Shown in pieces: positions 36,767-60,714 of a stretch of 64,000 nucleotides of DNA (position 1 is its first letter; each line of letters starts with the position of its first letter). The stretch comes from Occallatibacter gabretensis (GTDB lineage Bacteria; Acidobacteriota; Terriglobia; Terriglobales; Acidobacteriaceae). Location of the stretch: contig NZ_LAIJ01000009.1 in assembly GCF_001449115.1 (NCBI RefSeq), forward strand, positions 2,052,114-2,116,113. The letters are read 5' to 3'. Made by a program: the position numbers and the translations under genes. Below the pieces are notes generated by a model. That model was not told the origin of the DNA, searched no databases, and saw only the letters and a list, made by a program, of their open reading frames with translations.

Positions 36767-39700
36767 ATGGTCAGCTCTGTGGAGCATTTGAGTACCGTAC
36801 AGTTCTTATCGGAACTTCGCCGGCTTGACATTCATGTGAGTGTCGAGGGTGGGAGACTGCGCTGTAACGCCCCAGCGGGGCGCCTTACGAAAGAACTGGA
36901 AAAGGCTCTTGTCGAGCACAAAGCAGAGATCATCCAGACTCTCCGCGCTTCGAATGCATCCTCTTCTATTCCCAGACGATACGAACCAAACAAGCGAATG
37001 CCTCTGTCCTTTGCCCAGGAGCGCTTGTGGTTTCAGCAAAATCTAAAACCGGAGAGCACAGCTCACAACATCACTGCCAGGCGCCGTTTGCAGGGTGCGG
37101 TGAATGCGGAATTGCTGGAACGTGCTTTGCGTACCCTCGTGCGGAGGCACGAGATTCTGCACACGCGTGTTGTAGAAGCAGATGGAGTTCCTGCTCAAGA
37201 AGTGCAACAGGATCTGTTGCCCACTGTTGAGGTTTATGACCTATCTCATCTTGCAGGAACTGAGCAGATGACGGCGGCGGAGTCAACGATACGGAAGTTC
37301 TCAGCACGACGGTTCAATTTTGCAAGCGGAGGTCTCTTCCGCGTGGCCCTCATTCGTCTTTCCAGCGATGATTGCCAACTCGTAATGGCTGCCCACCATA
37401 TCATCTGCGACGGCTGGTCTCTGGGCATCTTTTTTACGGAGCTCTGCTCACTGTATGAAGCGGGGCAGCGCGGACAGGCGATCGAATTAGCGGGGCTTCC
37501 GATTCAGTATGGCGATTACGCGCTATGGGAGCGGGAGCGGATGAACTCGATGTCGCTGGCTCCTCAGCTCAAATACTGGAAGGACAAGCTGAAGGGAGCA
37601 CCTGCTTCTCTTGAGATTCCTCTGGACCATCCGCGTTCAGCATCGCTTGAATACAAGTCGCGACTCGGTTCATTTCAATTGGATGAAGTCACCTCGGAAT
37701 CCCTGAGACGACTGGCTCGAGAGAGCGCCGCAACTCCCTTCATGATGTTGCTGGCGATTTTCAAAGCGCTGCTGGCCCGGTATACCGAACAGGGCGATAT
37801 TGTTGTCGGCACTCCAGTGTCGACGCGAACCTTGCCGGAACTGGAAGGGCTGATTGGATGCTTCATCAATACACAACTGCTTAGAACCGCGGTAGCCCAG
37901 AGTATTACAGCAAGAGAACTGGTCAACCGTGTCCGCACCACGGTGCTCGAATCGCTGAGCCATGCGGATGTTCCTTTTGAGGTATTGGTTCGGGAGCTTG
38001 TGACCAAGCGTGATCTGTCCCGTTCCCCGCTTTTTCAGATTGCGTTCGTTCTGCTCAATACGCCCCGGGCACAGGAATATGAGGTAGTAAGCGGCGGGAC
38101 CGATCTGGACATGACGCTGTACATGTGGGAGGCAGAAGGCAAATTTTATGGTTCCCTGGAGTACGATGGCGCGCTCTTCGATCCTGCTACTATTTCGTGC
38201 TTCACAGGCTGCTTTCAAACTTTAGCCGCGCAGATGGCGTCTGAGCCCGATACACAGCTCATGGATCTTGCCCTGGTGTCTTCCGACCAGGCCGAGGAGT
38301 GGTTTTCCGGGCAGAACGGTCCATCCGTGCCGCTACCTGCCGACACTGCACATGAATGGGTGCGGCGACAGGCGGAAGCGTCTCCGGAAAAGATTGCGGT
38401 TGTCTGCGGCAAGGAGCAGCTGAGTTTTCGAGACCTGTGGGCCAGGGCGGGCAAGCTGGCTTATCAGCTGCGGCTGCTGGGCGTGGGCCCCGGAAGCCGG
38501 GTTGCACTTTGCCTGAATCGAACAGTGGATCTGGTTGTCGCTCCACTTGCGGTCTGGCAGGCCGGCGCGGCGTATGTTCCGCTTGATCCTGACTATCCCG
38601 CGGGCCGGCTGGCATACATGCTCCGAGATGCCGGGGTTTCCGTTCTGGTGACTGAGAGCGATCTGCTGAAGCGCTTACCCAGCGCCCTGCCTTCATTTAT
38701 CTGCCTGGATCGAGAACGGCACGGGCATCTGAGTGAGGCTGAAAGTCTGCCTCCGGTTTCTGTGAAACCTGACGACCTTGCATATGTCATATATACGTCC
38801 GGATCGACCGGAAATCCGAAGGGAGTCGAAATCCGCCATCGGTCGCTGGTCAACCTTCTGGCCTCAATGATGCAGGAGCCAGGAATTGCCCATGCGGATC
38901 GGCTGCTGGCAGTGACAACCTTGTCTTTTGATATAGCCGGCCTGGAATTGTTTCTACCGCTGGTGAGCGGAGCTCAAGTGGTGGTCGCGCCAAGGAGTGC
39001 GGTTGCTGACGGAGCTGCTTTGGCTCGGCTGCTGACAGAATTCAAGATTACTGTGATGCAAGCTACGCCGGTGACCTGGCGTCTGCTTCTGCAGTCCGGC
39101 TGGAAGGGAAAACCGGGATTCAAGATTCTCTGCGGCGGTGAAGCACTTCCGCGCGATCTGGCGGAGCAACTGCTGGAGACCGGCGCAGAACTGTGGAACC
39201 TTTACGGCCCGACTGAGACTACCATCTGGTCTACCGTACAGCGTATTGAGGCTCCCGTTGATCGAATCGCCATTGGTCATCCTATTGCCAATACGCAGAT
39301 ATGCGTTCTCGATGAGGGCGGTCGTCCGCTGCCGCCTGGTTTGACGGGTGAGCTCTTCATCGGCGGAGCGGGGCTGGCAAGGGGCTATTGGAATCGTGAG
39401 GATCTGACGTCGGAACGGTTTGTGGCTGGACAAGACCGCTATTCAGGAACGCGTATGTATCGGACTGGCGACCTGGTGCGAAGGCTGTCTGGCGGCAATG
39501 TGGAATATGTCACTCGAGCGGATGATCAGGTGAAGTTCCGCGGCCATCGCATCGAACTGGGCGAGGTGGAGACCACGCTGGGACGCCATCCGAGTGTGGC
39601 GCAGGCGATTGTTACGGTTCGCGAAGATAAGCCGGGAGATAAAAAACTCATCGCTTATTGGACAATGCGTGGCCACGGAAAGGTCGATGCCGCTGAACTT

Positions 39701-41008
39701 CGCAAGAACCTGCGCAGACAGTTGCCAGACGTAATGATTCCCGCAGTATTCATCAAGCTTGATAGCTTTCCTCTGACTCCGAATAATAAGGTCGATCGAA
39801 AGGCTCTCGCCAGTTCCAAGTTTCGGTCGATGCTGGAAGAAAATGGGAATGGCAAACGGGGGCGTAGTGAGGCGCTTCCGGTTGAGGGATGGATCACGCC
39901 TGAGCGCGTCATGCCAAGCAATTATGTGGAGGCTGTTCTAGAGGAGATCTGGCGCGGGGTGCTGCAGGTCGAGCAGATTTCCGTACACGACAATTTCTTT
40001 GAACTTGGGGGAGATTCTCTCACTACGGCGCGAGCTGTCTCGGATATTCGAGCCGAGTTGGATATGGATTTACCTCTGCGATCGATCTTTGTTTATCCGA
40101 CGATCGCCAGTCTTGCGAGCCACATTTCTTTTGAGCCATCCACTCGCCGATACAGTTATACGAGCGAGCAGACGCACTGGCAGCGCCTGGTGCCCGCGCA
40201 ACCACGCGGCAGCCGCGCGCCGTTCTTCTTCCTTGCCGGATTTTATAGACCGGATGGCCCACTGCTTGTTCTTGCCCATTTGATTCCTCACCTCGGCAAG
40301 GATCAACCGGTCTTTGGATTCCAGCCGCGCTGGATGGAGGAGGGCGGAACCGACTATGACAACGTGGAGGAACTGGCGCGTGAATATATAGCGGAATTGC
40401 GCAAGGTTCAGCCAACGGGGCCTTACTTGCTGGGTGGCAACTGCGTGGATGGCATCGCGGTTTTGGAGATGGCAAGGCTTCTGGAAGAGGCAGGCGAGGA
40501 AGTCAGACGGGTGGTGCTGTTAGATACTGTACGGCCATCCTCGCGGCGGCTATTACAGATGGATCTGTTTTTCTTCAAGAAGAGGCTGGAACACATCCGC
40601 GACGTGCTTTTCGGAATTGTGAGCGCCAGAAACGGAGAACGGCTCCGCATGTTTCGCCAGGTGGCGAATCGAAAACTGGGAGTTGCAATATCCTCGGAAG
40701 ACCGCGAGATGGGTCGTTTCGACAAGCGGAGAGATCGCTATCGGCGATTGCTGAGCAGACACAAGCTCAAGAGCTGGTCCGGACGCATCACTCTGATCAG
40801 GAATGAAGAGGAATTTAACCTTGGCCACGACTTTGGCTGGACTGGCTTTTCTGACGCAGGATACGATGTTCACGTCGTTCCAGGGGAACATGAAACGATG
40901 CTGAGCGAGCACGGAAAAGAGGTTGCGCAGATCATCCGCCGATGCCTGGACGAGACTACGGCTGAGCGTTCCGAAGTGAGGGAATATAGAGAGGCCGGAG
41001 TTTTGTGA
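36767..41008 (+). CDS. NRPS1: docking-C-A-PCP-TE, predicted terminal module
   Basis: A 1413-residue module. In order: a TubC-type N-terminal docking domain (about 5-60, TVQFLSELRRLDIHVSVEGG); a condensation domain with HHIICDG at 210-216; an adenylation domain (A3 YTSGSTGNPKG at 676-686, YGPTETTIW later); a PCP with Ser1084 in LGGDSL; and a thioesterase (1120-1390). The pocket code read by hand is D-I-L-Q-L-G-L-I-W, a glycine-type code. The thioesterase has GGNCVDG with Cys1226 in the usual Ser position, and His1375 in PGEHETM. It is the first gene of the operon but carries the releasing domain. ATG 36767 is used; the frame opens at 36701. Confidence 0.93.
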   Translation: MVSSVEHLSTVQFLSELRRLDIHVSVEGGRLRCNAPAGRLTKELEKALVEHKAEIIQTLRASNASSSIPRRYEPNKRMPLSFAQERLWFQQNLKPESTAHNITARRRLQGAVNAELLERALRTLVRRHEILHTRVVEADGVPAQEVQQDLLPTVEVYDLSHLAGTEQMTAAESTIRKFSARRFNFASGGLFRVALIRLSSDDCQLVMAAHHIICDGWSLGIFFTELCSLYEAGQRGQAIELAGLPIQYGDYALWERERMNSMSLAPQLKYWKDKLKGAPASLEIPLDHPRSASLEYKSRLGSFQLDEVTSESLRRLARESAATPFMMLLAIFKALLARYTEQGDIVVGTPVSTRTLPELEGLIGCFINTQLLRTAVAQSITARELVNRVRTTVLESLSHADVPFEVLVRELVTKRDLSRSPLFQIAFVLLNTPRAQEYEVVSGGTDLDMTLYMWEAEGKFYGSLEYDGALFDPATISCFTGCFQTLAAQMASEPDTQLMDLALVSSDQAEEWFSGQNGPSVPLPADTAHEWVRRQAEASPEKIAVVCGKEQLSFRDLWARAGKLAYQLRLLGVGPGSRVALCLNRTVDLVVAPLAVWQAGAAYVPLDPDYPAGRLAYMLRDAGVSVLVTESDLLKRLPSALPSFICLDRERHGHLSEAESLPPVSVKPDDLAYVIYTSGSTGNPKGVEIRHRSLVNLLASMMQEPGIAHADRLLAVTTLSFDIAGLELFLPLVSGAQVVVAPRSAVADGAALARLLTEFKITVMQATPVTWRLLLQSGWKGKPGFKILCGGEALPRDLAEQLLETGAELWNLYGPTETTIWSTVQRIEAPVDRIAIGHPIANTQICVLDEGGRPLPPGLTGELFIGGAGLARGYWNREDLTSERFVAGQDRYSGTRMYRTGDLVRRLSGGNVEYVTRADDQVKFRGHRIELGEVETTLGRHPSVAQAIVTVREDKPGDKKLIAYWTMRGHGKVDAAELRKNLRRQLPDVMIPAVFIKLDSFPLTPNNKVDRKALASSKFRSMLEENGNGKRGRSEALPVEGWITPERVMPSNYVEAVLEEIWRGVLQVEQISVHDNFFELGGDSLTTARAVSDIRAELDMDLPLRSIFVYPTIASLASHISFEPSTRRYSYTSEQTHWQRLVPAQPRGSRAPFFFLAGFYRPDGPLLVLAHLIPHLGKDQPVFGFQPRWMEEGGTDYDNVEELAREYIAELRKVQPTGPYLLGGNCVDGIAVLEMARLLEEAGEEVRRVVLLDTVRPSSRRLLQMDLFFFKKRLEHIRDVLFGIVSARNGERLRMFRQVANRKLGVAISSEDREMGRFDKRRDRYRRLLSRHKLKSWSGRITLIRNEEEFNLGHDFGWTGFSDAGYDVHVVPGEHETMLSEHGKEVAQIIRRCLDETTAERSEVREYREAGVL

Positions 41009-41847
41009 CAACAGCGAACGCGCCCTCTGCCACGATCTCGGATAGTTGCCAGGGCGAATCCCCACTCATTGCGGTTGAGAATGTGACGATGCGTTTTCCT
41101 ATCCCGAAGCGGTATCGGGAATGGGTGCTGGCGCCCCACCGGAGACGGCGTGTGTGTACTGCGCTTTCCAATGCGAACCTTGAGGTGCAAACCGGCGATC
41201 GCATTGCGGTGATGGGGCCGAACGGCGCCGGCAAGACAACTCTGCTTAAGCTGATTGCAGGAGCTTTGCTGCCCACTGAGGGGAAAGTGTTTGTGAATGG
41301 GCATAGCACACTTGAGCAGAGCGCGGCCGCACGGAGATCGGTGGGATTTGTCTTTAACGAAGAGCGCAGTTTTTTCTGGCGATTAACGGGCGTGCAGAAT
41401 CTTGAATTTTTCGGAGTACTCGACAACCTCTACGGGAGACAACTGCGCGAACGCATTGATCATGTCCTGGAGCTTGTGGGTCTGTCGGACGCTAGAGACA
41501 AAGCGGTCTACACATACAGCAGCGGGATGAAGCAGCGTCTGGCAATTGCACGAGTGCTGATTGCGGAACCGGATGTGTTGATTCTGGACGAGCCTACCCG
41601 CGCACTCGATCCGGTGGCCTGCGATCAACTCGTTGAACTGATTCTGTCGACCATTCATCGCAATTCACGGAAGACTCTGTTAATCGCCACGCATCGGCCC
41701 GAAGAAGCTTCGTTGCTGTGCAACAAGGTTCTGGTTGTCGGGGGCGGAAACATCCTGGGCAGGGAATCCATTGGCGGACTCGATGCAAAGGGAACTACTG
41801 TGCTTGAGTATTACCGGCAGCTCATGGTGAGCGGAGAGCGCTCATGA
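41005..41847 (+). CDS. ABC transporter ATP-binding protein, DrrA-like
   Basis: A 280-residue ATPase. Walker A is GPNGAGKTT, the signature YSSGMKQRLAIARVL, Walker B VLILDEP, and a switch His follows in LIATHRPEE. The N-terminus has an unusual 60-residue lead with KRYREWVLAPHRRRRV before the nucleotide domain. GTG 41005 overlaps the NRPS1 stop by four bases. With the permease that follows it forms a two-gene exporter likely to pump out the NRPS-PKS product; this is inferred from position and the ABC-2 type. Confidence 0.92.
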   Translation: MTTANAPSATISDSCQGESPLIAVENVTMRFPIPKRYREWVLAPHRRRRVCTALSNANLEVQTGDRIAVMGPNGAGKTTLLKLIAGALLPTEGKVFVNGHSTLEQSAAARRSVGFVFNEERSFFWRLTGVQNLEFFGVLDNLYGRQLRERIDHVLELVGLSDARDKAVYTYSSGMKQRLAIARVLIAEPDVLILDEPTRALDPVACDQLVELILSTIHRNSRKTLLIATHRPEEASLLCNKVLVVGGGNILGRESIGGLDAKGTTVLEYYRQLMVSGERS

Positions 41848-42659
41848 TGCAATTGCTAAGAAAAGCCTTCGCATTCATCCGACGCGATTTTTGCATAGAG
41901 TCCGGCTATCAGGCCTCGTTTGTGATGGGCTTGATGGAATCTTTGATGCTGCTGATCATTCTGCGCTTTGTGGGCCGGCTGGTCTCCCCAACGGCGTCAG
42001 GCACCCTTAGCCATTCGGGATTGGCCTACTTTCCCTTTGCGCTTGTTGGGGTGGCATTCGCCCGCTACTTTGACCTGATGCTGAGAATGTTTTCCGATTC
42101 GATTCGTACGGCTCAAGTCACGGGCTGCTTAGAGGCAATGCTGTGCAGCCAAACGGACAGTATCACAATCGTGATGCTGTCATCGCTCTACAGCTTGATT
42201 TCCGGAGGAATACAACTACTGCTCATTCTGCTGGGCGGAGCATTTCTGTTCGGAGTGGATCTGCGGCATGTGGATGTGCCTGCGACTTTGCTTGTGCTGC
42301 TGGTCTCGGTTGCAATTTTCATAGCATTCGGAGTGCTCTCGGCAGCTGCGATTGTGTGGCTAAAGAAGGGCGATCCGGTCACGTGGGTTCTGGGCGGACT
42401 AGGCAGCATTCTGGGCGGAGCTTATTTTCCGATTGATGTGATGCCGGCCTGGATGCAGAAGATCTCCTTTCTGATTCCAGTGACGTATTCTTTGCAAGCG
42501 CTGCGGCTCACCATGCTCAAGGGTGCATCGCTGGCCGAGGTGGCGAAACCTGTTAGCACACTTGCGATCATTGCTGTGGTGATTCTGCCGGCCAGCGCTG
42601 TCATATTTGCTGCCACTATACGACGGGGCAGAAAAGAAGGCACTTTAACGCAGTACTAA
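41844..42659 (+). CDS. ABC-2 type transporter permease
   Basis: A 271-residue membrane protein with six predicted helices and the ABC-2 pattern, including the late VLGGLGSILGGAYFPIDVMP and SFLIPVTYSLQALR motifs. ATG 41844 overlaps the ATPase gene by four bases (ATGA). Permease and ATPase form the export unit of the biosynthetic operon. Confidence 0.92.
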   Translation: MMQLLRKAFAFIRRDFCIESGYQASFVMGLMESLMLLIILRFVGRLVSPTASGTLSHSGLAYFPFALVGVAFARYFDLMLRMFSDSIRTAQVTGCLEAMLCSQTDSITIVMLSSLYSLISGGIQLLLILLGGAFLFGVDLRHVDVPATLLVLLVSVAIFIAFGVLSAAAIVWLKKGDPVTWVLGGLGSILGGAYFPIDVMPAWMQKISFLIPVTYSLQALRLTMLKGASLAEVAKPVSTLAIIAVVILPASAVIFAATIRRGRKEGTLTQY

Positions 42660-42683
42660 CTACCTTGGCCACCGGCGGGATAT

Positions 42684-43451
42684 ATGCTCAGGCGAACTCG
42701 ATATCGGGACAATTCAGCTGTTCAGCTGTTCTGCGTCCCGCACGCCGGAAATGGCCCTGCCGTATTTCGTGGATGGGCAGACCGATTAGCTCCCGAGATT
42801 GAAACTGTCGTCGTCGAACTGCCCGGACGAGAGTCGCGCTTCTATGACGTACCCTATCAGCGCATGGAGCCGCTTGTGAATGACCTCGCGGACGCGGTGA
42901 TCGACTGCTTGTCAGCTGATCGGCCGTTTGCGTTTTTCGGTAACAGCATGGGAAGCGTAATTGCATTTGAGACATTGCACGAGATACACCGGCGGACCGG
43001 ACGCGAGGCTCTGCACCTGTTCGTATCGGCTTGTGGCGCTCCGCATTGTCGATCTATTCTGCCGCCGATGGGCCACCTGGAAGATGAAGAGCTAATTCGT
43101 GAAGTGGACACACGCTACGGAGGCATTCCTGCACCCGTTTTGGCCGACAAAGAATTCCTTGCGCTGGCCCTACCCACTTTACGTGCCGATATCTGTGTGC
43201 TCGAAGCGTATCGACAGGATGAGCCTCAACCGCTGAAGTGCCCGATCACGGCCTTCGCCGGCAGGTTCGATGCAACTATACCTTTGGAGCAGGTGGAAGC
43301 ATGGTGCGAGCAGACTTCAGCCACGTTCCAAAGTTTTGTCCTGGAGGAGGGACATCTTTATCTGGATAGCGCGCGTGATGTACTGTTGCGCAATCTGAGC
43401 CAGGCTTTGCTGGTTTCCGCCGCGTGCGAGAGAGAGGTTCCCAGTGACTAG
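42684..43451 (+). CDS. type II thioesterase (GrsT-like)
   Basis: A 255-residue alpha/beta hydrolase of the external editing thioesterase family. The nucleophile is Ser88 in FFGNSMGSVIAFE; AGRFDATIPLEQV holds the acid and EEGHLYLD the catalytic His. The N-terminal FCVPHAGNGPAVFRGWADRL is typical. Such enzymes clear mis-primed carrier domains. The gene begins 25 bp after the permease gene and overlaps PKS1 by eight bases. Unlike the integrated thioesterase of NRPS1, it keeps the normal Ser. Confidence 0.93.
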   Translation: MLRRTRYRDNSAVQLFCVPHAGNGPAVFRGWADRLAPEIETVVVELPGRESRFYDVPYQRMEPLVNDLADAVIDCLSADRPFAFFGNSMGSVIAFETLHEIHRRTGREALHLFVSACGAPHCRSILPPMGHLEDEELIREVDTRYGGIPAPVLADKEFLALALPTLRADICVLEAYRQDEPQPLKCPITAFAGRFDATIPLEQVEAWCEQTSATFQSFVLEEGHLYLDSARDVLLRNLSQALLVSAACEREVPSD

Positions 43452-46400: not shown

Positions 46401-46857
46401 AGACGGGCAACCGCAGGCAAGCGCGCCAGCTTTGTTCGCGGAATTGGGTGAACGCACGGAGGCTCGATGCGCAGATGCGGTTGACGGCGTTGTGCGTCAG
46501 GTGATTTGCAGGGTGTGCCGACTAACTATTTCTCCGGAGGAATTGAACGATCGGGATCGATTGGGCGATCTGGGAATGGATTCTTTAATCGCACTGGAGC
46601 TTCGCAATGAATTAGGCAAGGCTCTGGGGCTGGAAGGAAAGATTTCGGCGACGGTTGCTTTTGACACCGGCACTGTGGGGGAATTAACAAATTTGCTGGT
46701 GAGTCTTGTATCTCCAGTGATAGCGTCCGCTTCTCCGGCAAGAGGGCCGGAGAGCATTGCGGCTGCTCAGTCGAAGATAGTAAGTGCTGAGGCTTTGGAG
46801 GACATGACAGATGCCGAAGTGGAAGAGCTACTGAGGGAGCGATTGGCGGAACGATGA
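43444..46857 (+). CDS. PKS1: KS-MT-ACP without acyltransferase, predicted first module
   Basis: A 1137-residue protein. The ketosynthase (residues 9-430) has active Cys180 in DTACSSSL, His315 in EAHGTGT and His355 in NLGHGEG. A linker of about 150 residues ends in PLYSFQRQRFWF, the place where an AT normally sits before this motif; no AT is present. A carbon-methyltransferase domain follows (SAM motif ILEIGAGTGG at 788-797), then an ACP with Ser1047 in GMDSLIAL. The C-terminal [19 protein letters not shown] is a helical docking tail. There is no N-terminal docking helix, consistent with a first module. The ACP must be loaded in trans. GTG 43444 is the start. Confidence 0.93.
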   Translation: MTSSDQRREPIAILGMALRLPGEVSSPEQFWEALEKGQDLIGTVPPERWNASSFQGSDPDEIGTMYDIHGGFISAVDAFDASFFEMHPREASKADPQQRLLLELTWEALERSSINAQSLARSETGIWVGISNNDWARILVEDPRKIDGYTGIGGSGSVAAGRIAHFLGTYGPAEVIDTACSSSLVAIHHAVQSLRLGETNLAIVGGANLILSPDLHICFARSGMLSRSGRCSTFDNAADGYVRSEGCCVVVLKRLSDARRDGDPVLAVIHGTAVNQDGRSARLTAPNIRAQQKVMRSALADAGVEATAVNYVEAHGTGTPLGDPMEFLSIGAIYGEKRSTLSPLRIGSVKTNLGHGEGVSGLTSLIKVVLMLQSGHCIAPHLHCSSPNSRIDWKRWPIEIPHTLTPWPEEDGVHFAGVSSFGFSGTNAHVIVGSVEQTTDAVPVVVAPSSQEALLCISAASPQALRLLAASYIEFLRKTDESFDGICESALRTRARLTQRLAVRASNALAAADSLEKWLAGDAACGVATGSNGAIENAASDDALARFAMEFLTGEKLRIESANSGRIALPLYSFQRQRFWFGEAPEIQWRREREQVWQAVCAEATRQSFLGPLGWKPESYPERWAALERLTIAYARNVLFRAGAFPEGAAATVSDVMGSCGFQPIYRRLVGRWLKNLAIAGVLAESNERYSPVGKLVPVALEELWRDVEKTLGAEPGQLTYFRRCGDLLGDVLVGRSSPLETLFPAGSFDLAEALYQQSLEARYNNAIVANGIRTAVQGWGKKRNVRILEIGAGTGGTTSAVAPLLSPEETEYWFTDVSEMFLRRARQNFAQFPFIRYGHFNLDREPEQQNVPVGYFDVVVAANALHACRNLPLSLGRIQRMLSPGGILILIETTVHQTCFDMSIGLIEGWQHFEDSERAENPLLSESRWCEVLMENGFEHAISFPGKDSPAFFVGQHVVLAQRHFGSSHDDSHVAVGDRVTGKDADGQPQASAPALFAELGERTEARCADAVDGVVRQVICRVCRLTISPEELNDRDRLGDLGMDSLIALELRNELGKALGLEGKISATVAFDTGTVGELTNLLVSLVSPVIASASPARGPESIAAAQSKIVSAEALEDMTDAEVEELLRERLAER

Positions 46858-52000: not shown

Positions 52001-55000
52001 TCTGTTTTGTCTTCGGGTGATTTGCAACTTCAACTTCGCCGGGTTTTACCTCGCCATCAGATTCCTTCAACGTTTTTATTCATCGAGGAGATTCCGCATA
52101 CTCCAAATGGCAAGATCGACTATGCGGCGCTTGACGCGCTTCCTCTTGAGTCAAAGATGGAAGGACGCGAGGTTCGCCTGCCGTCGGGTGAAATAGAGAA
52201 GAAACTTCTTGGCGATTTCAAGGACTTGCTCCACGCCAATGCGGCGACGGTTGAGGATGATTTGTTCTCTTTGGGCGGACATTCTCTGCTTGCGATGCAG
52301 CTTCTGTCGCGCATCACAGCCGCTTTCGGGGTGACCCTGTCTGTAGCAGATATTTTTCAGAACCCCACAGTGGAAGGGCTGGCGGCTCGCGTTCAGGCTG
52401 CGGGCGGAGTACCGGCGAAGGCACCATCCAAGAACACGAGAGTAAAAGATCCAGTCAATAGCAAAGAGCATGGGCTATCGCGTGCGCAACGGCGGTTATG
52501 GTTCCTCGATCAGATGGATCCCGGCAATCCCGTTTATAACATCGCGATTGCGCTCCGTCTTGATGGCCCACTTGACCGCGTTGCTTTTGAAGAGACATTA
52601 CAAACGATCGTCAGCAGGCACGAATCGTTGCGCGCGCGGTTTTTGCAGCGGGATGGCTTGCCCTATGTCGATGTCGATGATACGCAGAGATTGTCCATTG
52701 ACTTCGTCGATCTAGCCTCCCTTGCTTCAGAAGCCCAAGAGGATCAACTGAAGCAGTTGTTTTCCGTCGAATCTCAACGCCCCTACGTGCTCGACCAGGG
52801 GCAGCTATGCCGTGTATCGCTCTATCGGAAGAATCATCGTGAGCATGTGGTTCTGCTGGGAATGCATCACATCATTTCTGATGGCTGGTCCATTGGTGTA
52901 TTGGCGCAGGAGCTTGGTCGTATTTACGAAGCAACAGTCAGGCGGCTGCCATGTCCATTGCCTCCACTGCCGATTCAATTCCGTGATTTTGTTCAATGGG
53001 AGTCGGAGCAGGAGAAACTATCATCTGGCAACGATCTGACATATTGGCGGAATCAACTCGGTGGTGAATTACCTTTCCTGGAATTGCCAGCCGATCGCCT
53101 CAGAGCGCCTGTGCAGGCTTTTCAAGGACAGCGGATTTTTGTTGATATTGATGCGGGCCTTGAAGAAAAGCTACAAAAAATAGCACGAGAACACAACGCC
53201 ACATTCTTTATGGTCCTGCTTGCTGGCTTTAGCGTGATGTTACATCGCTACTCACGGCAGACGGATATTCTGATTGGCACCCCAACCGCCGGACGTACGA
53301 AGAGCAGCTTCGAAGGGCTGATCGGATTTTTTGTAAACAATCTGGTCTTACGAATTGGTTTGGCAGACAATCCCAGCTTTTCAGAATTGTTAAGCCACGT
53401 ACGCAGCGTGGCGCTGGAAGCGTTCGAGCATCAAAGCACGCCATTCGATCAACTGGTGGAAATACTGCAACCGGAGCGAAATCTCGATCGAAGCCCCATA
53501 TTCCAGGTTCTCTTTACTCTGCAGAATACGATGATGCCGCGCCTGCAGTTCGATGAGATGGTCATGGCGCCATTAGAGATTGAGCGGCTTCATGCTCGCT
53601 ATGACCTTGCTGTGGATATTTATCCGCATGAAGGTCATTTCCGTTGTAGTTTCGAATTCAACACTGACATTTTTGAAGAGACATCCATTCGGCAGATGCT
53701 GCGGCACTACATTCGCATTCTTGAGATGGTTTGCGATAACGCACAACAGCAGATCGGCAACCTGCATTTGCTCGATGACGCAGAGCGGTGTCAGCTTATC
53801 CATGATTGGAATCGCACTGCGATGCCCGCGCCCGCTTATTCCAACGTGCCATCATGGTTCCGGGCGCAGGCTCGCACCAGTCCTGAAGCAATAGCTGTTG
53901 AGATGGGCGATCGTTCGCTCACATATCAGGATCTTGATATTGAATCCGACAGGGTCGCCGCCGATTTGCGCTCAGGTGGCATCGGACGCGGAACTATCGT
54001 TGGGATCTATATGCAGCGCAGTTCTAATATGGTGGTCGGACTGTTGGGCATCCTTAAGGCCGGGGCGGCTTACCTTCCTCTTGATCCAGCGCTGCCTTCC
54101 CACCGAATTGAGTTCATGCTTTCAGACGCGCAGGTTCCTCTCATCCTGACAGAGCGCGAACTACGCGATACCTTGCCGGCAACCGCTGCGGTGATTTGGC
54201 CGATTGAAGATGTGAGTAAGGAAGGCGATGCGCAGGTTCCTGATGATGTATGCAGTTCGGATCTTGCGTATCTGATCTATACCTCCGGATCAACCGGGAA
54301 TCCGAAAGGAACAGAGATTCAACACGAGGCCTTTGTGAATCTCTTGCGATCCATGCTGAAAGATCCTGGCTTGAGAAAAGAAGATACGCTGGTGGCGATC
54401 ACTACGATTTCGTTCGACATTGCGGGACTGGAGATATTTGGTCCCCTGATGTGCGGCGCGAAATTGGTGCTAGCTACGCGAGAACAGACTGTTGACCCTG
54501 AGCTACTGGCCGAGCTGCTGAACTCGACAGGCGCCACGGTTGTGCAGGCGACTCCGTCGACCTGGCGCATGCTAGTTGAGTCCGGATGGACGGGCAGGCC
54601 AATGCTGCGCATGTGGTGCGGCGGCGAGGCGCTATCGTTGAACCTTGCCGAGAGCTTGCTGGCGCGCGGCAGTGAGCTTTGGAATCTCTATGGTCCTACT
54701 GAAACGACGATCTGGTCATCGGTACATCGCATTCGAAGCGGTGAGACACAAATTTTGATCGGACGTCCAATTACAAATACCCAAATGTACATTCTGGATG
54801 ACAATCTTGAACCGGCCCCGCCGGGCGTTGCAGGAGAGTTGCATATCAGTGGGGACGGAGTGGCCCGGGGATACTGGCGACGCCCCGAACTCACCGCGAG
54901 CCGTTTTCTGCCTGATCCTTTCGATACGATCGACGCTCGCAGAATGTATCGAACGGGTGATCTTGCGCGCTATCGCCGTGACGGTCAGATCCAATTACTT

Positions 55001-55597
55001 GGGCGAACGGACCATCAAATCAAGTTGCGCGGACACAGAATTGAGCCTGGCGAGATCGAGATTGCAATGGAACGGCATCCGGCTGTTCGGCAGGCAGTGG
55101 TTGTGTTGGATGGTGAGGGTATTGAACAGCGGCTGGTTGCATACGTTCGTTTTGAAGGCTCGGACGATGCCGATCAGCTTCGATCCTGGCTGCACCCAAT
55201 CCTGCCGGACTACATGGTTCCTTCCATGATTGTGCCGCTTCAAGAAGTGCCTTTGACTCCTAATGGCAAGATTGATCGCAAACGCCTGCCCGCTCTGCGG
55301 GGAACATTGCCCGATCGGAGCGTCGACTCTATTTCAGCCCGAAACCGTACCGAACAGAGACTGAGCGAACTTTGGTCTGATCTTCTGCATGTCGAAAGGC
55401 CGGGCATCCGAGAGAATTTCTTTGATCTTGGAGGGCATTCGCTTTTACTGGTTCAACTCCACGCACAATTAAAACGTGAATTCAGCGCTAACATTGCTGT
55501 TGTGGATTTGTTTCGTTATCCCACAATCGAGGCACTCGCGTCGTTTTTAGACCGCAGAAGTGCCGAAGTCTCGTTGCCTGTGGGAGCTAATGCTTGA
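49082..55597 (+). CDS. NRPS2: docking-C-A-PCP-C-A-PCP, two-module synthetase
   Basis: A 2171-residue protein. A TubC-type docking domain (1-58, LIEMLSDLRSRGVVLSMEGD) is followed by C1 (HHIISDG, 203-209), A1 (TSGSTGRPKG 675-684, YGPTEN), PCP1 (Ser1068), C2 (HH at 1262-1263), A2 (YTSGSTGNPKG near 1733) and PCP2 (Ser2120). Hand-read pocket codes: A1 D-A-A-F-I-G-G-T-F, resembling valine-type codes; A2 D-I-L-Q-W-G-L-I-W, resembling glycine but with Trp at the fifth position. There is no epimerase or thioesterase. The C-terminus passes the chain to PKS3, whose ATG overlaps this stop (TGATG). Confidence 0.94.
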   Translation: MRSLIEMLSDLRSRGVVLSMEGDRLQCNAPKGVITSEIRSELAARKEEILNLLKTSLENNSHESNVDAAEFSLSSSQRRLWFIQKMDPQNPVYHMAVAIQMTGELQWGALENSLRILVNRHESLRTAFHESDGKPFARIIESNTWNPAFVDLAYLEPKAAQDEATRRAVEEARTPFVLEQAPLFRATLYRTDSDHHLLMLVMHHIISDGWSLGILARELGMIYSDLRSGKEPSLPPLISRFRDFVRLESDAVQRNSEAHLGYWLERLRGPLPLSQLSGRRRPAVPSFRGQHSSVTIDAYLRDSVEELCRDNDVTPFMFLLAVFEVLLYRYTRQTDLLVGTANSNRSRGEFSSVVGFFVDNLVLRCDMSGNPRFQDLLRQVRRVAHESYAHEELPFSVLMERLQPARELSRNPLFQIAFIMQNVPLEPIQLEGLRIDAKPLDIGISPMDLSIAVWPEGGAYRLDLEYCTDLFDKEFIHDLQSQYLNLLRQLLDDPRQQIDDVQLVTEVESRRLLVDLNVTAHPYPSSPVHSVFEEFVRTQGNATALTFADGEFSYEELNQKANAIGAWLSEYGLNAGSFVAVCAPGSPLGIAAFLGILKAGCAYFPVAPSDPPERLRKMMQDAGTTVLLTTAAFRERLILPEAVSTALLEEISAKPCAEFAGPAIHSDDPACLLFTSGSTGRPKGVVVPHRSIMRLVRGTDYARFASDEVFLQACTLSFDASTAEIWGALLNGARLVLIDSERPSVEEISRAIRDHGVTTLFITTAFFHHFAAYHPDAIASLNQVIVGGDVLSPTHAAQLLYKSPDIHLVNGYGPTENGTFTTTCKVKLDSLDGSAIPIGRPICNTRVFLLDANRKPVPVGATGELYTAGDGLALGYLNAPKEIESPFVTLNFDEVGTVRAYRTGDLARYRSDGMLEFLGRTDKQVKVQGYRVEPAEVEEALLSIDRVRAVVVSTRIAADDSKQLVAYVISQSESVLSSGDLQLQLRRVLPRHQIPSTFLFIEEIPHTPNGKIDYAALDALPLESKMEGREVRLPSGEIEKKLLGDFKDLLHANAATVEDDLFSLGGHSLLAMQLLSRITAAFGVTLSVADIFQNPTVEGLAARVQAAGGVPAKAPSKNTRVKDPVNSKEHGLSRAQRRLWFLDQMDPGNPVYNIAIALRLDGPLDRVAFEETLQTIVSRHESLRARFLQRDGLPYVDVDDTQRLSIDFVDLASLASEAQEDQLKQLFSVESQRPYVLDQGQLCRVSLYRKNHREHVVLLGMHHIISDGWSIGVLAQELGRIYEATVRRLPCPLPPLPIQFRDFVQWESEQEKLSSGNDLTYWRNQLGGELPFLELPADRLRAPVQAFQGQRIFVDIDAGLEEKLQKIAREHNATFFMVLLAGFSVMLHRYSRQTDILIGTPTAGRTKSSFEGLIGFFVNNLVLRIGLADNPSFSELLSHVRSVALEAFEHQSTPFDQLVEILQPERNLDRSPIFQVLFTLQNTMMPRLQFDEMVMAPLEIERLHARYDLAVDIYPHEGHFRCSFEFNTDIFEETSIRQMLRHYIRILEMVCDNAQQQIGNLHLLDDAERCQLIHDWNRTAMPAPAYSNVPSWFRAQARTSPEAIAVEMGDRSLTYQDLDIESDRVAADLRSGGIGRGTIVGIYMQRSSNMVVGLLGILKAGAAYLPLDPALPSHRIEFMLSDAQVPLILTERELRDTLPATAAVIWPIEDVSKEGDAQVPDDVCSSDLAYLIYTSGSTGNPKGTEIQHEAFVNLLRSMLKDPGLRKEDTLVAITTISFDIAGLEIFGPLMCGAKLVLATREQTVDPELLAELLNSTGATVVQATPSTWRMLVESGWTGRPMLRMWCGGEALSLNLAESLLARGSELWNLYGPTETTIWSSVHRIRSGETQILIGRPITNTQMYILDDNLEPAPPGVAGELHISGDGVARGYWRRPELTASRFLPDPFDTIDARRMYRTGDLARYRRDGQIQLLGRTDHQIKLRGHRIEPGEIEIAMERHPAVRQAVVVLDGEGIEQRLVAYVRFEGSDDADQLRSWLHPILPDYMVPSMIVPLQEVPLTPNGKIDRKRLPALRGTLPDRSVDSISARNRTEQRLSELWSDLLHVERPGIRENFFDLGGHSLLLVQLHAQLKREFSANIAVVDLFRYPTIEALASFLDRRSAEVSLPVGANA

Positions 55598-58500
55598 TGA
55601 GTTCGTCCAATGAAATCAATCCATTGATGTCAGCCACATTTTCAGAGTCCATATCGAATTCGGAACGGTGGCCCGATGGCATTGCCATCATCGGCATGAG
55701 TGCGCGCTTTCCGCAATCACGCAATGTGCAGGAATTCTGGCAACATCTGGTTGCCGGTGACTCACTGATCGTAAATTTCAGTGAGGATGAGCTTCATCAG
55801 GCTGGCATTGATCAGGCAATGCTCAGAGATGCGAACTATGTTCGGCGCGGCAATGTCATTGAGGATGCAGATCAGTTCGATGCCGGCTTCTTCGGTCTGA
55901 GCCGCCGCGAAGCAGAAATCCTCGATCCACAGCAGAGGATATTTCTCGAGTGTGCCTGGGAAGCTCTGGAGAACGCAGGCCATACCGGCGAGGGTGAGCG
56001 CGTCGGTGTCTTTGCAGGCGTGGGAATGAACACCTACGTTCTTCAATTACTGCGGAATCCGGGAGTGCTGGCGAGCGTGGGCGAGTACCAGATGATGCTG
56101 GCCAGCGATAAGGATTATCTTGCTACACGCGTTGCGTACAAGCTTGATCTGCGCGGGCCCGCTGTTACGGTGCAGACTGCCTGCTCCACATCGCTTGCCG
56201 CTGTGCATCTTGCCTGCCGCAGCCTTTTGAGCCGCGAGTGTTCGATGGCACTCGCCGGCGGAGTTTCGATCTCTTTTCCGCAGGGAATTGGTTATTCCTA
56301 TATTCCTGGCATGATTCTTTCGCCGGATGGGCACTGTCGCCCATTTGACGCGAATGCAGAAGGAACTGTGCCCGGACGCGGCGCCGGCATTGTCGTTCTG
56401 AAGCGGCTGTCAGAGGCAATTGCCGATGGAGATTCAATTATTGCGGTTATCCGAGGCTCCGCCTGGAATAACGATGGAGCCGGTAAGGTAGGCTACACGG
56501 CACCCAGCGTCGACGGGCAGACAGAGGTCATACGAGCAGCGCAAGCCGCGGCGGGTATTGATGGCGCACGCGTGGGATACGTAGAAACGCATGGCACGGC
56601 GACTGAACTGGGGGATGCGATTGAGTTCTCCGCTCTCACTCAGGTCTTCGCTACTGAGGAGCGCAAGCATCCTCTTGTGCTCAGCGCCGTGAAGGCGAAT
56701 ATGGGGCATGCAGATGCAGCGGCGGGCATTGCTGGTTTGATCAAAGCTGCGCTTGCAGTGGACACCGGAATCATTCCGCCTACTCCGGGATTCGAGATCC
56801 CCAATCCAGCGCTCGGAATTGAGAAGACGCCCTTTGTAATCAGTTCTTCTTCTCTAGATTGGGCGGGCGATGCAGAGCGTTGGGCGGGCGTCAGCTCCTT
56901 CGGAATCGGAGGCACCAACGTACATGTTGTCTTGAGTGCAGCGCCTGCGGCTGCAAGCAGCAATGCAGAACCGGTGCGATCACATATCTTTCCCGTCTCG
57001 GCGAAGAGCGCCTCTGCATTAAGCACTGCGTGCGAGCAGTTGTCGCAACGGCTGGCAGCAGAGAGTGACTTATCGGCCTCTGATGTTGCTACAACACTTC
57101 AATTGGGCCGGCGATCCTTCGGATTCAGGCGAGCAGTGGTTGCAGACAACTGCAGCGAAGCTGCAAAGCTTTTGATCAAGCCCGCCAGAAAACTCGAGCC
57201 AGGGACCCATTTGGACCGGGATGTCATATTTCTCTTTCCTGGACAGGGGCAGCAATTTCCGGGCATGGTCGAGGACCTGTATCGCAAAGACAGCGTCTTC
57301 CGGCGGACGATCGATGCAGGGTGCGACTTCCTGAAGGAATATGCAGAACTGGATGTGCGTTCACTTCTTGTAAACGGGGAGAGGACGTCAGAATCGTCCA
57401 CCCGTCTGCGCGATACGCAGGTTGCACAGCCTGTGCTGATGCTTGTGGAATACGCTTTAGCAGAACGGTTGCGCTCTCTGGGAGTAGAGCCAGCCGGTTT
57501 ACTTGGGCATAGCATTGGCGAACTCACTGCGGCCTGTGTTGCAGGTGTGTTTTCCTTTGAAGACGGCCTTCGACTTGCCGTCGAACGCGGCCGTCTCATG
57601 GCGCAGACTCCACCGGGAATCATGCTGGCTGTGATGCTGCCTCCTGAAGATCTGGCGCGCTATCTCGATCATGGTCTTTGGCTCGCTGCTGAAAACGGCC
57701 CGAAAATGTCAGTGGCATCAGGGCTTGTGGATGCGGTGGAAGAGCTTGAACGCAGGTTGGCGGTCGAGAGAGTGGCGACTATTCGCCTTGCCTCAAAAAA
57801 TGCATTTCATACGCCGCTTATGGCCGAACCCGCAAAGACATTCCGGGGAATCGTAGCTGCTACTGTTCGCCATGCGCCCAGTATTCCGTGGGTTTCCAAT
57901 GTGAGCGGCGGCTGGATCGGATTGGCGGAGGCGCAGGACCCGCAATACTGGGCAAATCAGATTATTTCGCCGGTGCGCTTCACTCGTTGTCTGGCGACCC
58001 TGGCTGAGCGTCGCAGGCTGCTGATCGAGGCAGGGCCAGGCGAAGCTCTGATCGGGATCGCGCGACAGCAGTTGTCGACCAGTGTCCTGATTCCTGTTCT
58101 GGGGGCAGATAATCGCAGGGCAACGGATGGTGTAATTTTCCATCAGGCTGTGGCCACTGCGTGGGAATGCGGCGTTAACATCCAATGGGAACGACTCAGT
58201 CCTAAACCAGCGGGACGACGGGTTCCTCTTCCGACGTATCCTTTTGAACGGCAGCGCTATTGGGTCGAGCCCGCATCTTCTGTTAACGAGACCGCGGTTT
58301 CGACAGCGACGCCACTCCTATCTCCTTTGCCCGCTTCCGATAGCGATTCTCCGGCGAAGCACGAAGACATCTCGAAGTGGTTTTATGCTCCCTGTTGGCA
58401 AGGGACGCCACCGGCCGGCAATGTTTTGCGTGCACGAAGCAAATCTGTTGAATGCTGGCTGGCGTTGGATGGGGAAGATCCACTTAGCAATGCATTGGTT

Positions 58501-60186
58501 TCGTCTCTTCGCGCGCAGGGATCAAAGGTCATCTGCGTGAAAGCGGGCGAACAGTTTCACTGGCAGGACGGAGACGTACGTGTAAATCCGTCCAGTCCGG
58601 CCGATCTGAAGACGCTGTGGGAGCAGATTGAGGCTGCAGGACTACGACCGGATGGGCTTCTATGTCTTCCCAGGTCCGGGCTCGAAGGTAACAAGGGATC
58701 TCGCTATGATTTCATTCTTCAGCTTCTGCAGATGGCTGGTACGCGCCAGCGATATCTGCGAAGGTTTGAGTTCATTACGAACTCGTTGGTAAGTGTGAAT
58801 GGAGAGCCTGTCACGAATCGGGAAGATGGTGAACTGCTGGGCCTGGCGCGTGCACTGCGGGCTGAACTGGTTGGCGTGGAGTGTCGCTCTATTGATATCG
58901 AACTGCCTGAGGGCAACGTTGAGCCGTTGGTGCAGAACGTTCTCGACGAACTGTCTACATCTGGTCCGGGCCTCTCAATCGCTTATCGGCGCGGGCAGCG
59001 CTGGCAGAAGATATGGACGCAGGCAGCTCTGAAGGCAGACGCTAAGTCGCCGTTCCGGAGCGGCGGCGTTTATCTGATTACGGGTGGCGTGGGCGGCATT
59101 GGTTATGTTGCGGCGAAACATCTGTTGCAGGACCACGGTGCCCGTGTGGTTGTTGTGGGGCGGACCATACTTCCAGACCGGAGTGAATGGGAGTCCTGGG
59201 TTTCCGCACATGGAGAAGATCATGCAACATCGCGACGTATTCGCAGGATGCAGGAGCTTGAAGGCGCCGGTGGAGAGGTACTGTTTATGGCTGCGGATGT
59301 TGCTGATCGCGATGCCATGAAGGCTGTCATAGACCAGACACAAGCGAAGTTCGGACCAATTCATGGAGTGATCCACTCGGCGGGCGTTGCCGGCGGAAGC
59401 AGGATATTGTCCCAGCCAGTTGAAGAGGCTCGTGAGATTCGCAAGCCGAAGATAGAAGGGTCGCGCGTGCTTGCTGAGTTGCTACGCGATAGCGGCATTG
59501 ATTTTCTTCTCTTCTGTTCTTCTATCAGTGCCAACTTTCCGCCTGCTTCGCAGAGCGCATATTCTTCTGCGAATGCTTTCCAAAACAGCTTTGCTGAATA
59601 TTGTCGCGGAAGCTTGAAGATTCCTGCGTTTGCCATCGGATTTGATGCCTGGCGAGAAGTGGGAATGATGGCCGAGCTAGTGCTTCCTGAAGGGATGGAA
59701 TCCTTCCGCGAGCAGGGAATGCGTCGTGCTATGACGAACGCTGAGGGTATCGAAGTCATTAGCCGTGTATTGGGGCAATGGCGTGGAGCGCACATTCTTG
59801 TGAGCACCTGTGATCTGGATGCTTCGGTCAACTCGACTACTCCCGCTGCTGTCGAGTTGCCGGATTCCGACGATGCGGTTTCCGCGGTTATTGACTCCAG
59901 TGAGTTGAGTGTCATTCTTGAGATATGGAAGGATTTGCTGGGCACCGATGCCATTGATCCGTCCGATAATTTCTTCAACCTCGGCGGGCATTCGCTCATG
60001 GCTACGATGATGATCTCGCGGATTCGGGAGCGGCTGGGCGTTACGCTTTCGCTGAAGGGTATCTTTGAAGCGCAGACGCCTGCGGCCCTGGCTGAGCTTG
60101 TGCAGATTGTGAGCGGACAACCGGCTGCCGGAGAGCATTCGGAAGCGCCGACGGAGGGTGAGGAGCGGGAGATATTTGAGATCTGA
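55597..60186 (+). CDS. PKS3: KS-AT-KR-ACP
   Basis: A 1529-residue module. The KS has Cys196 in QTACSTSL, His332 in ETHGTATELG and His371 in NMGHADAAAG; the CST and ETHGTAT variants are common in KS domains that take chains from an NRPS. The AT has Ser639 in GHSIGE and AFH at 736-738, both pointing to malonyl-CoA. The KR has NADPH motif TGGVGGIG at 1162-1169, Ser1308/1309 and Tyr1322 (AYSSAN). The ACP has Ser1466 in GGHSL. There is no DH, so a beta-hydroxy unit is expected. The acidic tail EGEEREIFEI could pair with the docking domain of NRPS1. The only AT of the locus is here. ATG 55597 is preferred to TTG 55594. Confidence 0.94.
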   Translation: MSSSNEINPLMSATFSESISNSERWPDGIAIIGMSARFPQSRNVQEFWQHLVAGDSLIVNFSEDELHQAGIDQAMLRDANYVRRGNVIEDADQFDAGFFGLSRREAEILDPQQRIFLECAWEALENAGHTGEGERVGVFAGVGMNTYVLQLLRNPGVLASVGEYQMMLASDKDYLATRVAYKLDLRGPAVTVQTACSTSLAAVHLACRSLLSRECSMALAGGVSISFPQGIGYSYIPGMILSPDGHCRPFDANAEGTVPGRGAGIVVLKRLSEAIADGDSIIAVIRGSAWNNDGAGKVGYTAPSVDGQTEVIRAAQAAAGIDGARVGYVETHGTATELGDAIEFSALTQVFATEERKHPLVLSAVKANMGHADAAAGIAGLIKAALAVDTGIIPPTPGFEIPNPALGIEKTPFVISSSSLDWAGDAERWAGVSSFGIGGTNVHVVLSAAPAAASSNAEPVRSHIFPVSAKSASALSTACEQLSQRLAAESDLSASDVATTLQLGRRSFGFRRAVVADNCSEAAKLLIKPARKLEPGTHLDRDVIFLFPGQGQQFPGMVEDLYRKDSVFRRTIDAGCDFLKEYAELDVRSLLVNGERTSESSTRLRDTQVAQPVLMLVEYALAERLRSLGVEPAGLLGHSIGELTAACVAGVFSFEDGLRLAVERGRLMAQTPPGIMLAVMLPPEDLARYLDHGLWLAAENGPKMSVASGLVDAVEELERRLAVERVATIRLASKNAFHTPLMAEPAKTFRGIVAATVRHAPSIPWVSNVSGGWIGLAEAQDPQYWANQIISPVRFTRCLATLAERRRLLIEAGPGEALIGIARQQLSTSVLIPVLGADNRRATDGVIFHQAVATAWECGVNIQWERLSPKPAGRRVPLPTYPFERQRYWVEPASSVNETAVSTATPLLSPLPASDSDSPAKHEDISKWFYAPCWQGTPPAGNVLRARSKSVECWLALDGEDPLSNALVSSLRAQGSKVICVKAGEQFHWQDGDVRVNPSSPADLKTLWEQIEAAGLRPDGLLCLPRSGLEGNKGSRYDFILQLLQMAGTRQRYLRRFEFITNSLVSVNGEPVTNREDGELLGLARALRAELVGVECRSIDIELPEGNVEPLVQNVLDELSTSGPGLSIAYRRGQRWQKIWTQAALKADAKSPFRSGGVYLITGGVGGIGYVAAKHLLQDHGARVVVVGRTILPDRSEWESWVSAHGEDHATSRRIRRMQELEGAGGEVLFMAADVADRDAMKAVIDQTQAKFGPIHGVIHSAGVAGGSRILSQPVEEAREIRKPKIEGSRVLAELLRDSGIDFLLFCSSISANFPPASQSAYSSANAFQNSFAEYCRGSLKIPAFAIGFDAWREVGMMAELVLPEGMESFREQGMRRAMTNAEGIEVISRVLGQWRGAHILVSTCDLDASVNSTTPAAVELPDSDDAVSAVIDSSELSVILEIWKDLLGTDAIDPSDNFFNLGGHSLMATMMISRIRERLGVTLSLKGIFEAQTPAALAELVQIVSGQPAAGEHSEAPTEGEEREIFEI

Positions 60187-60685: not shown

Positions 60686-60714
60686 AGCCGCAAGAGGCGG
60701 CTTTCATTTTATTT
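60686..60714 (+). terminator. intrinsic terminator downstream of the operon and IS remnant
   Basis: Arms AGCCGC and GCGGCT with a five-base loop are followed by TTCATTTTATTT on the plus strand. It also overlaps the end of the minus-strand beta-lactamase-like gene. Confidence 0.5.

Follow-up and report, generated by a model that had tools for sequence, protein, structure and literature searches.

Which way does an assembly line run when its first gene encodes what looks like its last module? The question is raised by a hybrid non-ribosomal peptide synthetase (NRPS) and polyketide synthase (PKS) operon in a 64,000-nucleotide stretch of Occallatibacter gabretensis DNA (NZ_LAIJ01000009.1, positions 2,052,114 to 2,116,113; hereafter the window), on contig C2 of a 5.35 Mb genome. 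The operon comprises eight same-strand genes (36767-60186), the first of which, NRPS1, carries its only integrated thioesterase (TE); a separate type II TE lies at 42684-43451. The original prediction, made from the sequence, was that the chain passes along the order PKS1-PKS2-NRPS2-PKS3-NRPS1. We find this order well supported, chiefly by relatives of the cluster in four further acidobacterial genomes, and put a probability of about 0.8 on the reading that the window encodes a shortened acidobacterial hybrid line running in this order, in which the acyl carrier proteins (ACPs) of PKS1 and PKS2 would be charged in trans. Gene order that is not collinear with biosynthesis is ordinary in such assembly lines, and many show it. 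A terminal module encoded first is likewise ordinary; more telling here are a block of modules that lack an integrated acyltransferase (AT) and have ketosynthases (KSs) of the cis-AT type, and a chimeric PKS2.

All genes and terminal motifs named in the prediction are present in the sequence. A single operon brings together KS/ACP modules, condensation (C), adenylation (A) and peptidyl carrier protein (PCP) modules and a release domain, making it a modular hybrid NRPS-PKS line; PKS1 also has a C-methyltransferase (cMT) and PKS3 a ketoreductase (KR). Of the seven points at which consecutive genes adjoin, six are overlaps of 4 or 8 bases, among them, as foreseen, that of NRPS2 and PKS3 (NRPS2 ends at 55597, PKS3 starts at 55594), and the remaining one is a 24-base gap, an arrangement that would suit a single transcript for the eight genes. 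We took the cluster to be these genes plus a divergent 4'-phosphopantetheinyl transferase (PPTase) gene, because exactly these are shared by a cluster in the SZAS-3 metagenome-assembled genome (MAG; L035, JAFDVQ010000005.1), where a PPTase orthologue (49% identity) sits at the equivalent place. The genes are as follows (ABC, ATP-binding cassette; TubC_N, the Pfam family of TubC-type docking domains).

35577-36356, minus strand: PPTase (Pfam ACPS), divergent neighbour
36767-41008, plus strand: NRPS1, TubC_N-C-A-PCP-TE (Pfam; orthologues in L035 and Acidobacterium sp. S8); an ATG at 36701 is also possible as its start
41005-41847, plus strand: ABC transporter ATPase (Pfam ABC_tran)
41844-42659, plus strand: ABC-2 type membrane subunit (Pfam ABC2_membrane)
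42684-43451, plus strand: type II TE with serine motif GNSMGS (Pfam Thioesterase)
43444-46857, plus strand: PKS1, KS-cMT-ACP without AT and without an N-terminal docking coil (Pfam, sequence)
46854-49085, plus strand: PKS2, KS-ACP without AT (Pfam)
49082-55597, plus strand: NRPS2, TubC_N-C-A-PCP-C-A-PCP (Pfam)
55594-60186, plus strand: PKS3, KS (TACSTS, ETHGTAT)-AT-KR-ACP, the sole AT of the cluster (Pfam; genome AT search)

Module order in related clusters

Five genomes were compared: those of the window, of L035 and of Acidobacterium sp. S8, and two further ones, G398 and G036. A query with PKS1 against 396 genomes from the phylum, with two candidates scored per genome, returned one full-length homologue apart from the window's own, in G036 (53%). 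Scanning contigs with the cMT-ACP part of PKS1 gave 38 loci, all of which were domain-scanned. Three of them (L035, L036 and L037) have AT-less KS-cMT-ACP modules; other AT-less modules with a cMT are encoded in L065 and in L063, which sits at the end of a contig. Another 21 (L038-L058) retain the AT as KS-AT-cMT, nearly all with a detected ACP behind it; of these, three are acidobacterial (L053, L055 and L056), and the others belong to Pseudomonadota, Myxococcota, Gemmatimonadota and Verrucomicrobiota. The AT-less KS-cMT-ACP module is present in all five compared genomes.

The arrangement of these clusters bears directly on the order of the line. In L035, where the TE module comes first, a single gene fuses a KS-cMT-ACP of the PKS1 type to a TubC-C-A-PCP of the NRPS2 type and is followed by PKS3, so that a PKS1-type ACP is joined covalently to an NRPS2-type module. 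In S8 (L073, L037, L074 and L080), modules 1-6 are followed by TubC-C, A-PCP and PKS3, with an ABC pair and TubC-C-A-PCP-TE on the opposite strand. (Reading S8 module 7 as two separate genes, with C and A-PCP in different frames, was rejected, as ten Ns lie between them.) G036 presents, on one strand, KS-AT-cMT-KR-ACP, TubC-C-A-PCP, the PKS3 homologue KS-AT-KR-ACP, and then A-PCP-TE and TubC-C; its terminal module thus sits directly after PKS3, as the predicted order expects. The TE module of G398 is encoded on the opposite strand, next to the type II TE gene. An NRPS2-type module directly precedes PKS3 in all five. Given these arrangements in L035, S8, G036 and G398, we regard the terminal module as mobile, with the remaining genes keeping their order.

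The same arrangements make it next to incredible that the gene order is the biosynthetic order, with NRPS1 starting the chain. NRPS1 heads the operon, yet it begins with a domain of the receiving, TubC type and ends in the only integrated TE, and its counterpart follows PKS3 in G036 and lies on the other strand in S8.

The A domain of the terminal module is 69% identical to that of NRPS1 in L035, 63% in S8, 48% in G398 and 44% in G036. In the latter two genomes the module is split, a free-standing TubC-C lying beside A-PCP-TE (G036, L086 1074-5275) or C-A-PCP-TE (G398, L081 5058-10241), and a simple search for HHxxxDG found no such motif in the C domains of these split modules.

Comparison with the longer relatives also suggested how PKS2 arose. 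Its KS is closest to that of S8 module 5 (65% identity), whereas the best three matches of its ACP are the module-6 ACPs of G398, S8 and G036 (49, 48 and 44%; the next is 37%), and its C-terminus carries a tail of the module-6 type. PKS2 is therefore probably a natural chimera of a module-5 KS and a module-6 ACP, which could have arisen by deletion of the stretch between KS5 and ACP6. NRPS2, in turn, carries an extra C-A-PCP. In G398 (L082 9789-14519), two C domains stand in tandem before one A domain and the first A-PCP is absent; they match the window's docking domain plus C1 at 48% and its C2 at 58%, and are apparently a remnant of a two-module NRPS2.

Docking tails and their partners

The prediction placed docking elements at six protein ends, all of which we located; for both acidic tails, the class was found to recur in the relatives with the same partner. 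(SLiM, short linear motif.)

36791-36943, plus strand: TubC-type (beta-hairpin) docking domain of NRPS1 (Pfam TubC_N, 8.5e-18)
46810-46854, plus strand: predicted C-terminal helical docking tail of PKS1; similar tails in three relatives
46884-46958, plus strand: predicted N-terminal coiled-coil docking segment of PKS2 (sequence)
49056-49082, plus strand: acidic tail of PKS2, SADYEDIAL, SLiM type, predicted for the docking domain of NRPS2
49088-49240, plus strand: TubC-type docking domain of NRPS2 (Pfam TubC_N, 6.9e-18)
60154-60183, plus strand: acidic tail of PKS3, EGEEREIFEI, SLiM type, predicted for the docking domain of NRPS1

The features of SLiM/beta-hairpin pairs are thus present, with TubC_N on NRPS1 and NRPS2 and short charged tails after the ACPs of PKS2 and PKS3. 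PKS3 homologues end in EEREIFEI (window and L035), EEREEFEI (S8), ESREEFEI (G398) and ADREEFSF (G036), while the tails that precede NRPS2-type docking domains follow the pattern YE[ED][IL]xL/I (window, S8, G398 and G036, the last reading SEYEELSI); the linker of the L035 PKS1-NRPS2 fusion has no such acidic tail. Both kinds therefore recur with the same partners, YE[ED][IL]xL/I before NRPS2 and REEFEI-like endings before NRPS1. Conservation is concentrated at the very ends: among the five PKS3 orthologues, pairwise identity is 69% over the last 8 residues versus 12% over the preceding 12, and among the four tails before NRPS2-type docking domains it is 46% versus 7%. Over eight residues, these within-class identities of 0.69 and 0.46 compare with 0.29 across classes, and when the nine tails are divided into a group of five and a group of four in all 126 possible ways, no division other than the observed one separates them as well. 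Neither ending was found on 27 further carrier-ended rows in those loci, except for S8 PKS3 itself in an overlapping locus. For the predicted helical contact, compared here with class 2 cis-AT PKS docking domains, in which two C-terminal helices meet a coiled coil at the partner's N-terminus, the PKS1-type tail and the N-terminal coil of the next KS protein are similar in four of four pairs, as judged from their sequences.

These data also bear on a branched or iterative line, in which PKS2 would also pass chains to NRPS1, giving a short product, or PKS3 would pass them back to NRPS2, giving a loop. Two acidic tails and two beta-hairpin docking domains would be present together in the same cell; the docking domains of NRPS1 and NRPS2 clearly belong to one family; SLiM/beta-hairpin pairs are described as promiscuous, including those of iterative rhabdopeptide synthetases, in the retrieved passages of PMC9113145; and cross-talk between noncognate assembly lines is reported in those of PMC13324335. 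Against such branching, the two tail classes stay apart across four or five genomes. The docking domains themselves speak less clearly: according to the same passages of PMC9113145, charged residues of strand beta-2 contact the tail, and this strand reads RLR in three of the five terminal docking domains and RLQ, RLS, KLT, RLI and RIV in the five of the NRPS2 type, a weak distinction from which G398 and G036 deviate. We thus consider branching unlikely, and favor two separate pairs in a linear line.

AT-less modules and their malonyl supply

By Pfam, PKS1 and PKS2 have no AT, and are thus modules without an integrated one. The remainder between the KS and the ACP or cMT includes a match to the KS-side linker and a motif of the kind usually seen behind an AT. 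A census of ATs in the window genome gave three domains, namely that of PKS3, one of the FabD type and one of the MdcH type, the latter two scoring over NCBIfam cut-offs and lying far from the cluster. The four relatives have 18 AT matches in total, of which one per genome lies in a frame of 320-417 amino acids (aa), FabD-like by length alone, since discrete ATs were classified in the window genome only; the rest lie in frames of at least 1063 aa. AT searches of the five genomes gave no obvious dedicated trans-AT, and none in or near the window cluster. In S8, modules 2-5 are AT-less and modules 1, 6 and 8 carry an AT. A contiguous AT-less block with cis-AT-type KSs can thus be seen both in the window (43444-49085) and in S8 (L037 111-17394).

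To place these KSs, we built a tree from 179 KS domains of at least 380 aa, minus 14, plus 3 references from the PDB, i.e., 168 rows. The dropped rows, from L059, L060, L061, L070 and L071, were disrupted, near-duplicate or remote, and partial KSs (L030 1-1089, L036 6466-7407 and L032) were left out; the tree was made by a quick method, with Shimodaira-Hasegawa-like approximate likelihood-ratio (SH-aLRT) support only, and midpoint-rooted. The KS of PKS1 (KS1) grouped with those of four other AT-less KS-cMT-ACP modules (support 100), and next to this group came KS-AT-cMT modules, which contain an AT, from two other Acidobacteriota (modest support, 83). KS2, of PKS2, was sister to the KS of S8 module 5 (98). 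Both shared the cis-AT side of the tree with CurL and EryAI, in a split supported at 100, and outside the trans-AT clade; the opposite side held 7zma, the trans-AT-like lines of genomes G029 and G386, and a clade of NRPS-fed KSs that includes KS3, of PKS3. In line with this, CurL scored 488 and 505 bits against KS1 and KS2, respectively, and the best comparison chains 343 (PksJ) and 397 (6mhk; PksL, 395); we take these single-KS chains, as well as the two-KS chain 7zma, to be trans-AT. The candidacy of 7zma as best match was rejected, as two KS domains add up in its score (313-380 bits per domain where given).

The tree also agrees with the predicted position of PKS3 behind an NRPS, for which its KS motif variants had been cited: of the 11 KSs in its clade, 10 directly follow an NRPS carrier, and the eleventh, L087, has no assigned upstream partner. 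The best solved relatives of KS3 include ClbC and ClbK, which we assume to be NRPS-fed.

Across the labelled rows, lack of an AT was not clustered in the tree (11 changes against a shuffled mean of 11.5; 232 of 500 shuffles were at least as low), since both cis-type and true trans-AT KSs occur among the AT-less ones. AT-less modules with a cis-type KS occur elsewhere in the phylum too, e.g., in genome G213, and the trend thus extends beyond this cluster. The KS and AT lists of 21 genomes were read by eye, the KSs considered being those among the matches listed. Trans-AT-like PKS frames of 14052 and 17277 aa were seen in G029 contig C40 (L088, L089) and G386 contig C31 (L090); both contigs also carry an AT in a shorter frame.

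An ordinary trans-AT PKS, served by a dedicated trans-AT gene elsewhere in the genome, would explain why PKS1 and PKS2 have no AT domains, and the window genome does have a second discrete AT, of the MdcH type, besides FabD, which may act as a loader. We consider this very unlikely, however, given that KS1 and KS2 fall with cis-AT KSs, that the genome's ATs are confined to those of PKS3, FabD and the MdcH type, and that each of the four relatives has one AT outside PKS-length frames. Slightly less improbable, though still distinctly so, is that PKS1 and PKS2 are in decay and have ceased to extend the chain: they have no AT, and the reductive loop found in the closest KS relative of PKS2 is missing from PKS2 as well, but their reading frames are intact, as are the motifs of KS, cMT and ACP, and the AT-less KS-cMT-ACP module is kept in five genomes.

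Malonyl for working PKS1 and PKS2 modules is probably supplied by FabD or by the AT of PKS3, and we would tentatively rank FabD first and the PKS3 AT second. In the retrieved parts of PMC13096860, FabD is indicated as the trans-AT for the AT-less barnesin NRPS-PKS; omitting native FabD during production in E. coli cut the yield only slightly, which its authors credit to the E. coli homologue. Excerpts of PMC10204065 and PMC11411704 describe E. coli FabD standing in for an inactivated cis-AT in vitro. The words "acyltransferase" and "trans-AT" do not occur in the retrieved text of the Ca. Angelobacter paper (PMC9723581). There is about an even chance, in our estimate, that a cis-AT-derived block shed its ATs in Acidobacteriota and is now loaded in trans by FabD or neighboring ATs; trans loading would then have evolved twice, here outside the classical trans-AT lineage, permitting modules to be fused by simple deletion, as in PKS2.

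Several points weigh against the order and trans loading proposed here. L035 lacks PKS2 and has one NRPS2 module fewer, so it supports the passage from a PKS1-type ACP to an NRPS2-type C domain, not PKS2 as such. The terminal modules of G036 and G398 are distant relatives of NRPS1, with identities of 44 and 48% in the A domain and 33 and 34% in the C domain, and may have been replaced there, and the clusters of both genomes are split over contigs. Their terminal docking domains read QLQ and RLQ, respectively, in place of RLR, which argues against a simple code. Such pairs can also cross-talk, as described above, and the short-frame ATs of the four relatives were assigned as FabD-like by length. 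Finally, PKS1 has no visible partner for loading a starter.

Proposed pathway and known systems

In the linear line that we favor, PKS1, as the probable first extension module, would take an acyl starter, extend it with malonyl and C-methylate it, and PKS2, reached through the helical docking ends, would add a further malonyl unit without reduction; the ACPs of both would be charged with malonyl most likely by housekeeping FabD, or by the PKS3 AT in trans. NRPS2 would add one amino acid and then probably glycine, PKS3 would add malonyl and reduce the ketone to a hydroxyl, and NRPS1 would add glycine and release the chain by its cysteine-type TE. The PKS2-NRPS2 and PKS3-NRPS1 contacts would be made through two different acidic-tail/beta-hairpin pairs, and, as docking pairs would set the order, it would be immaterial where in the operon the NRPS1 gene lies.

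The substrates are suggested by binding-pocket letters, nine of which were read from alignment, the tenth, K, being appended by convention. The A pocket of NRPS1, DILQLGLIW, is shared by L035 and S8, and DILQLGMVW is found in the terminal modules of G036 and G398; the second module of NRPS2 has DILQWGLIW, as in all five genomes, and its first module DAAFIGGTF, in the window only. PDB 5u89, which we take to be a glycine-activating DhbF module, gives the same nine letters as NRPS1. The A domains of NRPS1 and of the second NRPS2 module thus probably take glycine; none of the six A-domain code strings was found in the literature searched. The PKS3 AT has the motifs GHSIGE and NAFH, presumably of the malonyl type.

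For release, the TE has a Cys in place of Ser at its nucleophile.

40433-40453, plus strand: TE nucleophile motif of NRPS1, GGNCVDG

Cys holds this position in all five terminal modules aligned, and the closest solved TE by sequence is that of AB3403 (PDB 4zxh). According to the retrieved part of PMC11298585, the AB3403 TE has a nucleophilic cysteine and an Asp in position I, whereas the TEs of SulM and ObiF, which form beta-lactams and beta-lactones, have the catalytic Asp after strand beta-7, in position II. The Asp of VLLDT in NRPS1 aligns with VMIDT of AB3403, i.e., with position I, and we accordingly set aside an ObiF/SulM-type TE as improbable from the alignment, the shared Cys notwithstanding.

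To the left of the cluster, an ABC-F gene is matched in 15 of 21 genomes of the genus and a type III PKS (30866-31936) in 16 of 21, the window genome counted in both. The latter forms a set with a methyltransferase and a flavin adenine dinucleotide (FAD) enzyme (window 30866-33817); as suppliers of the starter, these three are unsupported, the type III PKS being common in the genus and without a match in the stretches around the L035 cluster. To the right, the cluster adjoins a gene for a beta-lactamase-family protein with tetratricopeptide (TPR) repeats (window 60709-62409), which was matched in the window genome only (1 of 21) and not in the L035 flanks. PKS3 has a match of 62% identity in one of 58 other genomes of the genus searched (G399, which matching positions suggest is the genome of L035) and 13 more at 38-50%; the distribution of the cluster within the genus is patchy.

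The five genomes form a natural series of AT loss, module dropping or fusion, and moves of the terminal module, through which the docking tails appear to hold the order. The series offers ready junctions for engineering, as well as a test of whether FabD feeds cis-AT-type modules in nature. Being small, with its own PPTase, type II TE, exporter and cysteine TE, the operon is suited to heterologous expression.

No characterised relative of the cluster turned up among the genomes, solved structures and literature searched, and literature searches on Acidobacteria clusters or products and on trans-AT or AT-less PKSs gave no matching cluster by title. The nearest systems are therefore partial likenesses. 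The SZAS-3 MAG cluster shares the PPTase, a first NRPS1-TE, the ABC pair, the type II TE, an AT-less KS-cMT-ACP, an NRPS2-type module and PKS3, all in the same order, and differs in having PKS1 fused to a single NRPS2 module and in lacking PKS2. That of S8 is alike in its last modules, its tail classes and an AT-less four-module block, and differs in being a longer line, with modules 1-6 before the NRPS part, and in having its TE module on the opposite strand. AB3403 is the best solved relative of the TE and A-pocket region and has a Cys in its TE motif, although other chains score higher over the whole A domain. The barnesin A synthetase, as described in the retrieved text of PMC13096860, likewise has an AT-less PKS module in an NRPS-PKS hybrid, a PPTase in the cluster and FabD indicated, but has one PKS module, with the TE on the PKS, and docking-tail pairs are not described in that text. 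Lastly, at the PKS-NRPS interfaces of the epothilone, tubulysin, enacyloxin and histone deacetylase (HDAC)-inhibitor systems, as given in the retrieved parts of PMC9113145 and PMC13324335, a C-terminal tail likewise meets a TubC beta-hairpin; by comparison, the window operon has two such putative pairs, whose tail classes are distinct in its relatives.

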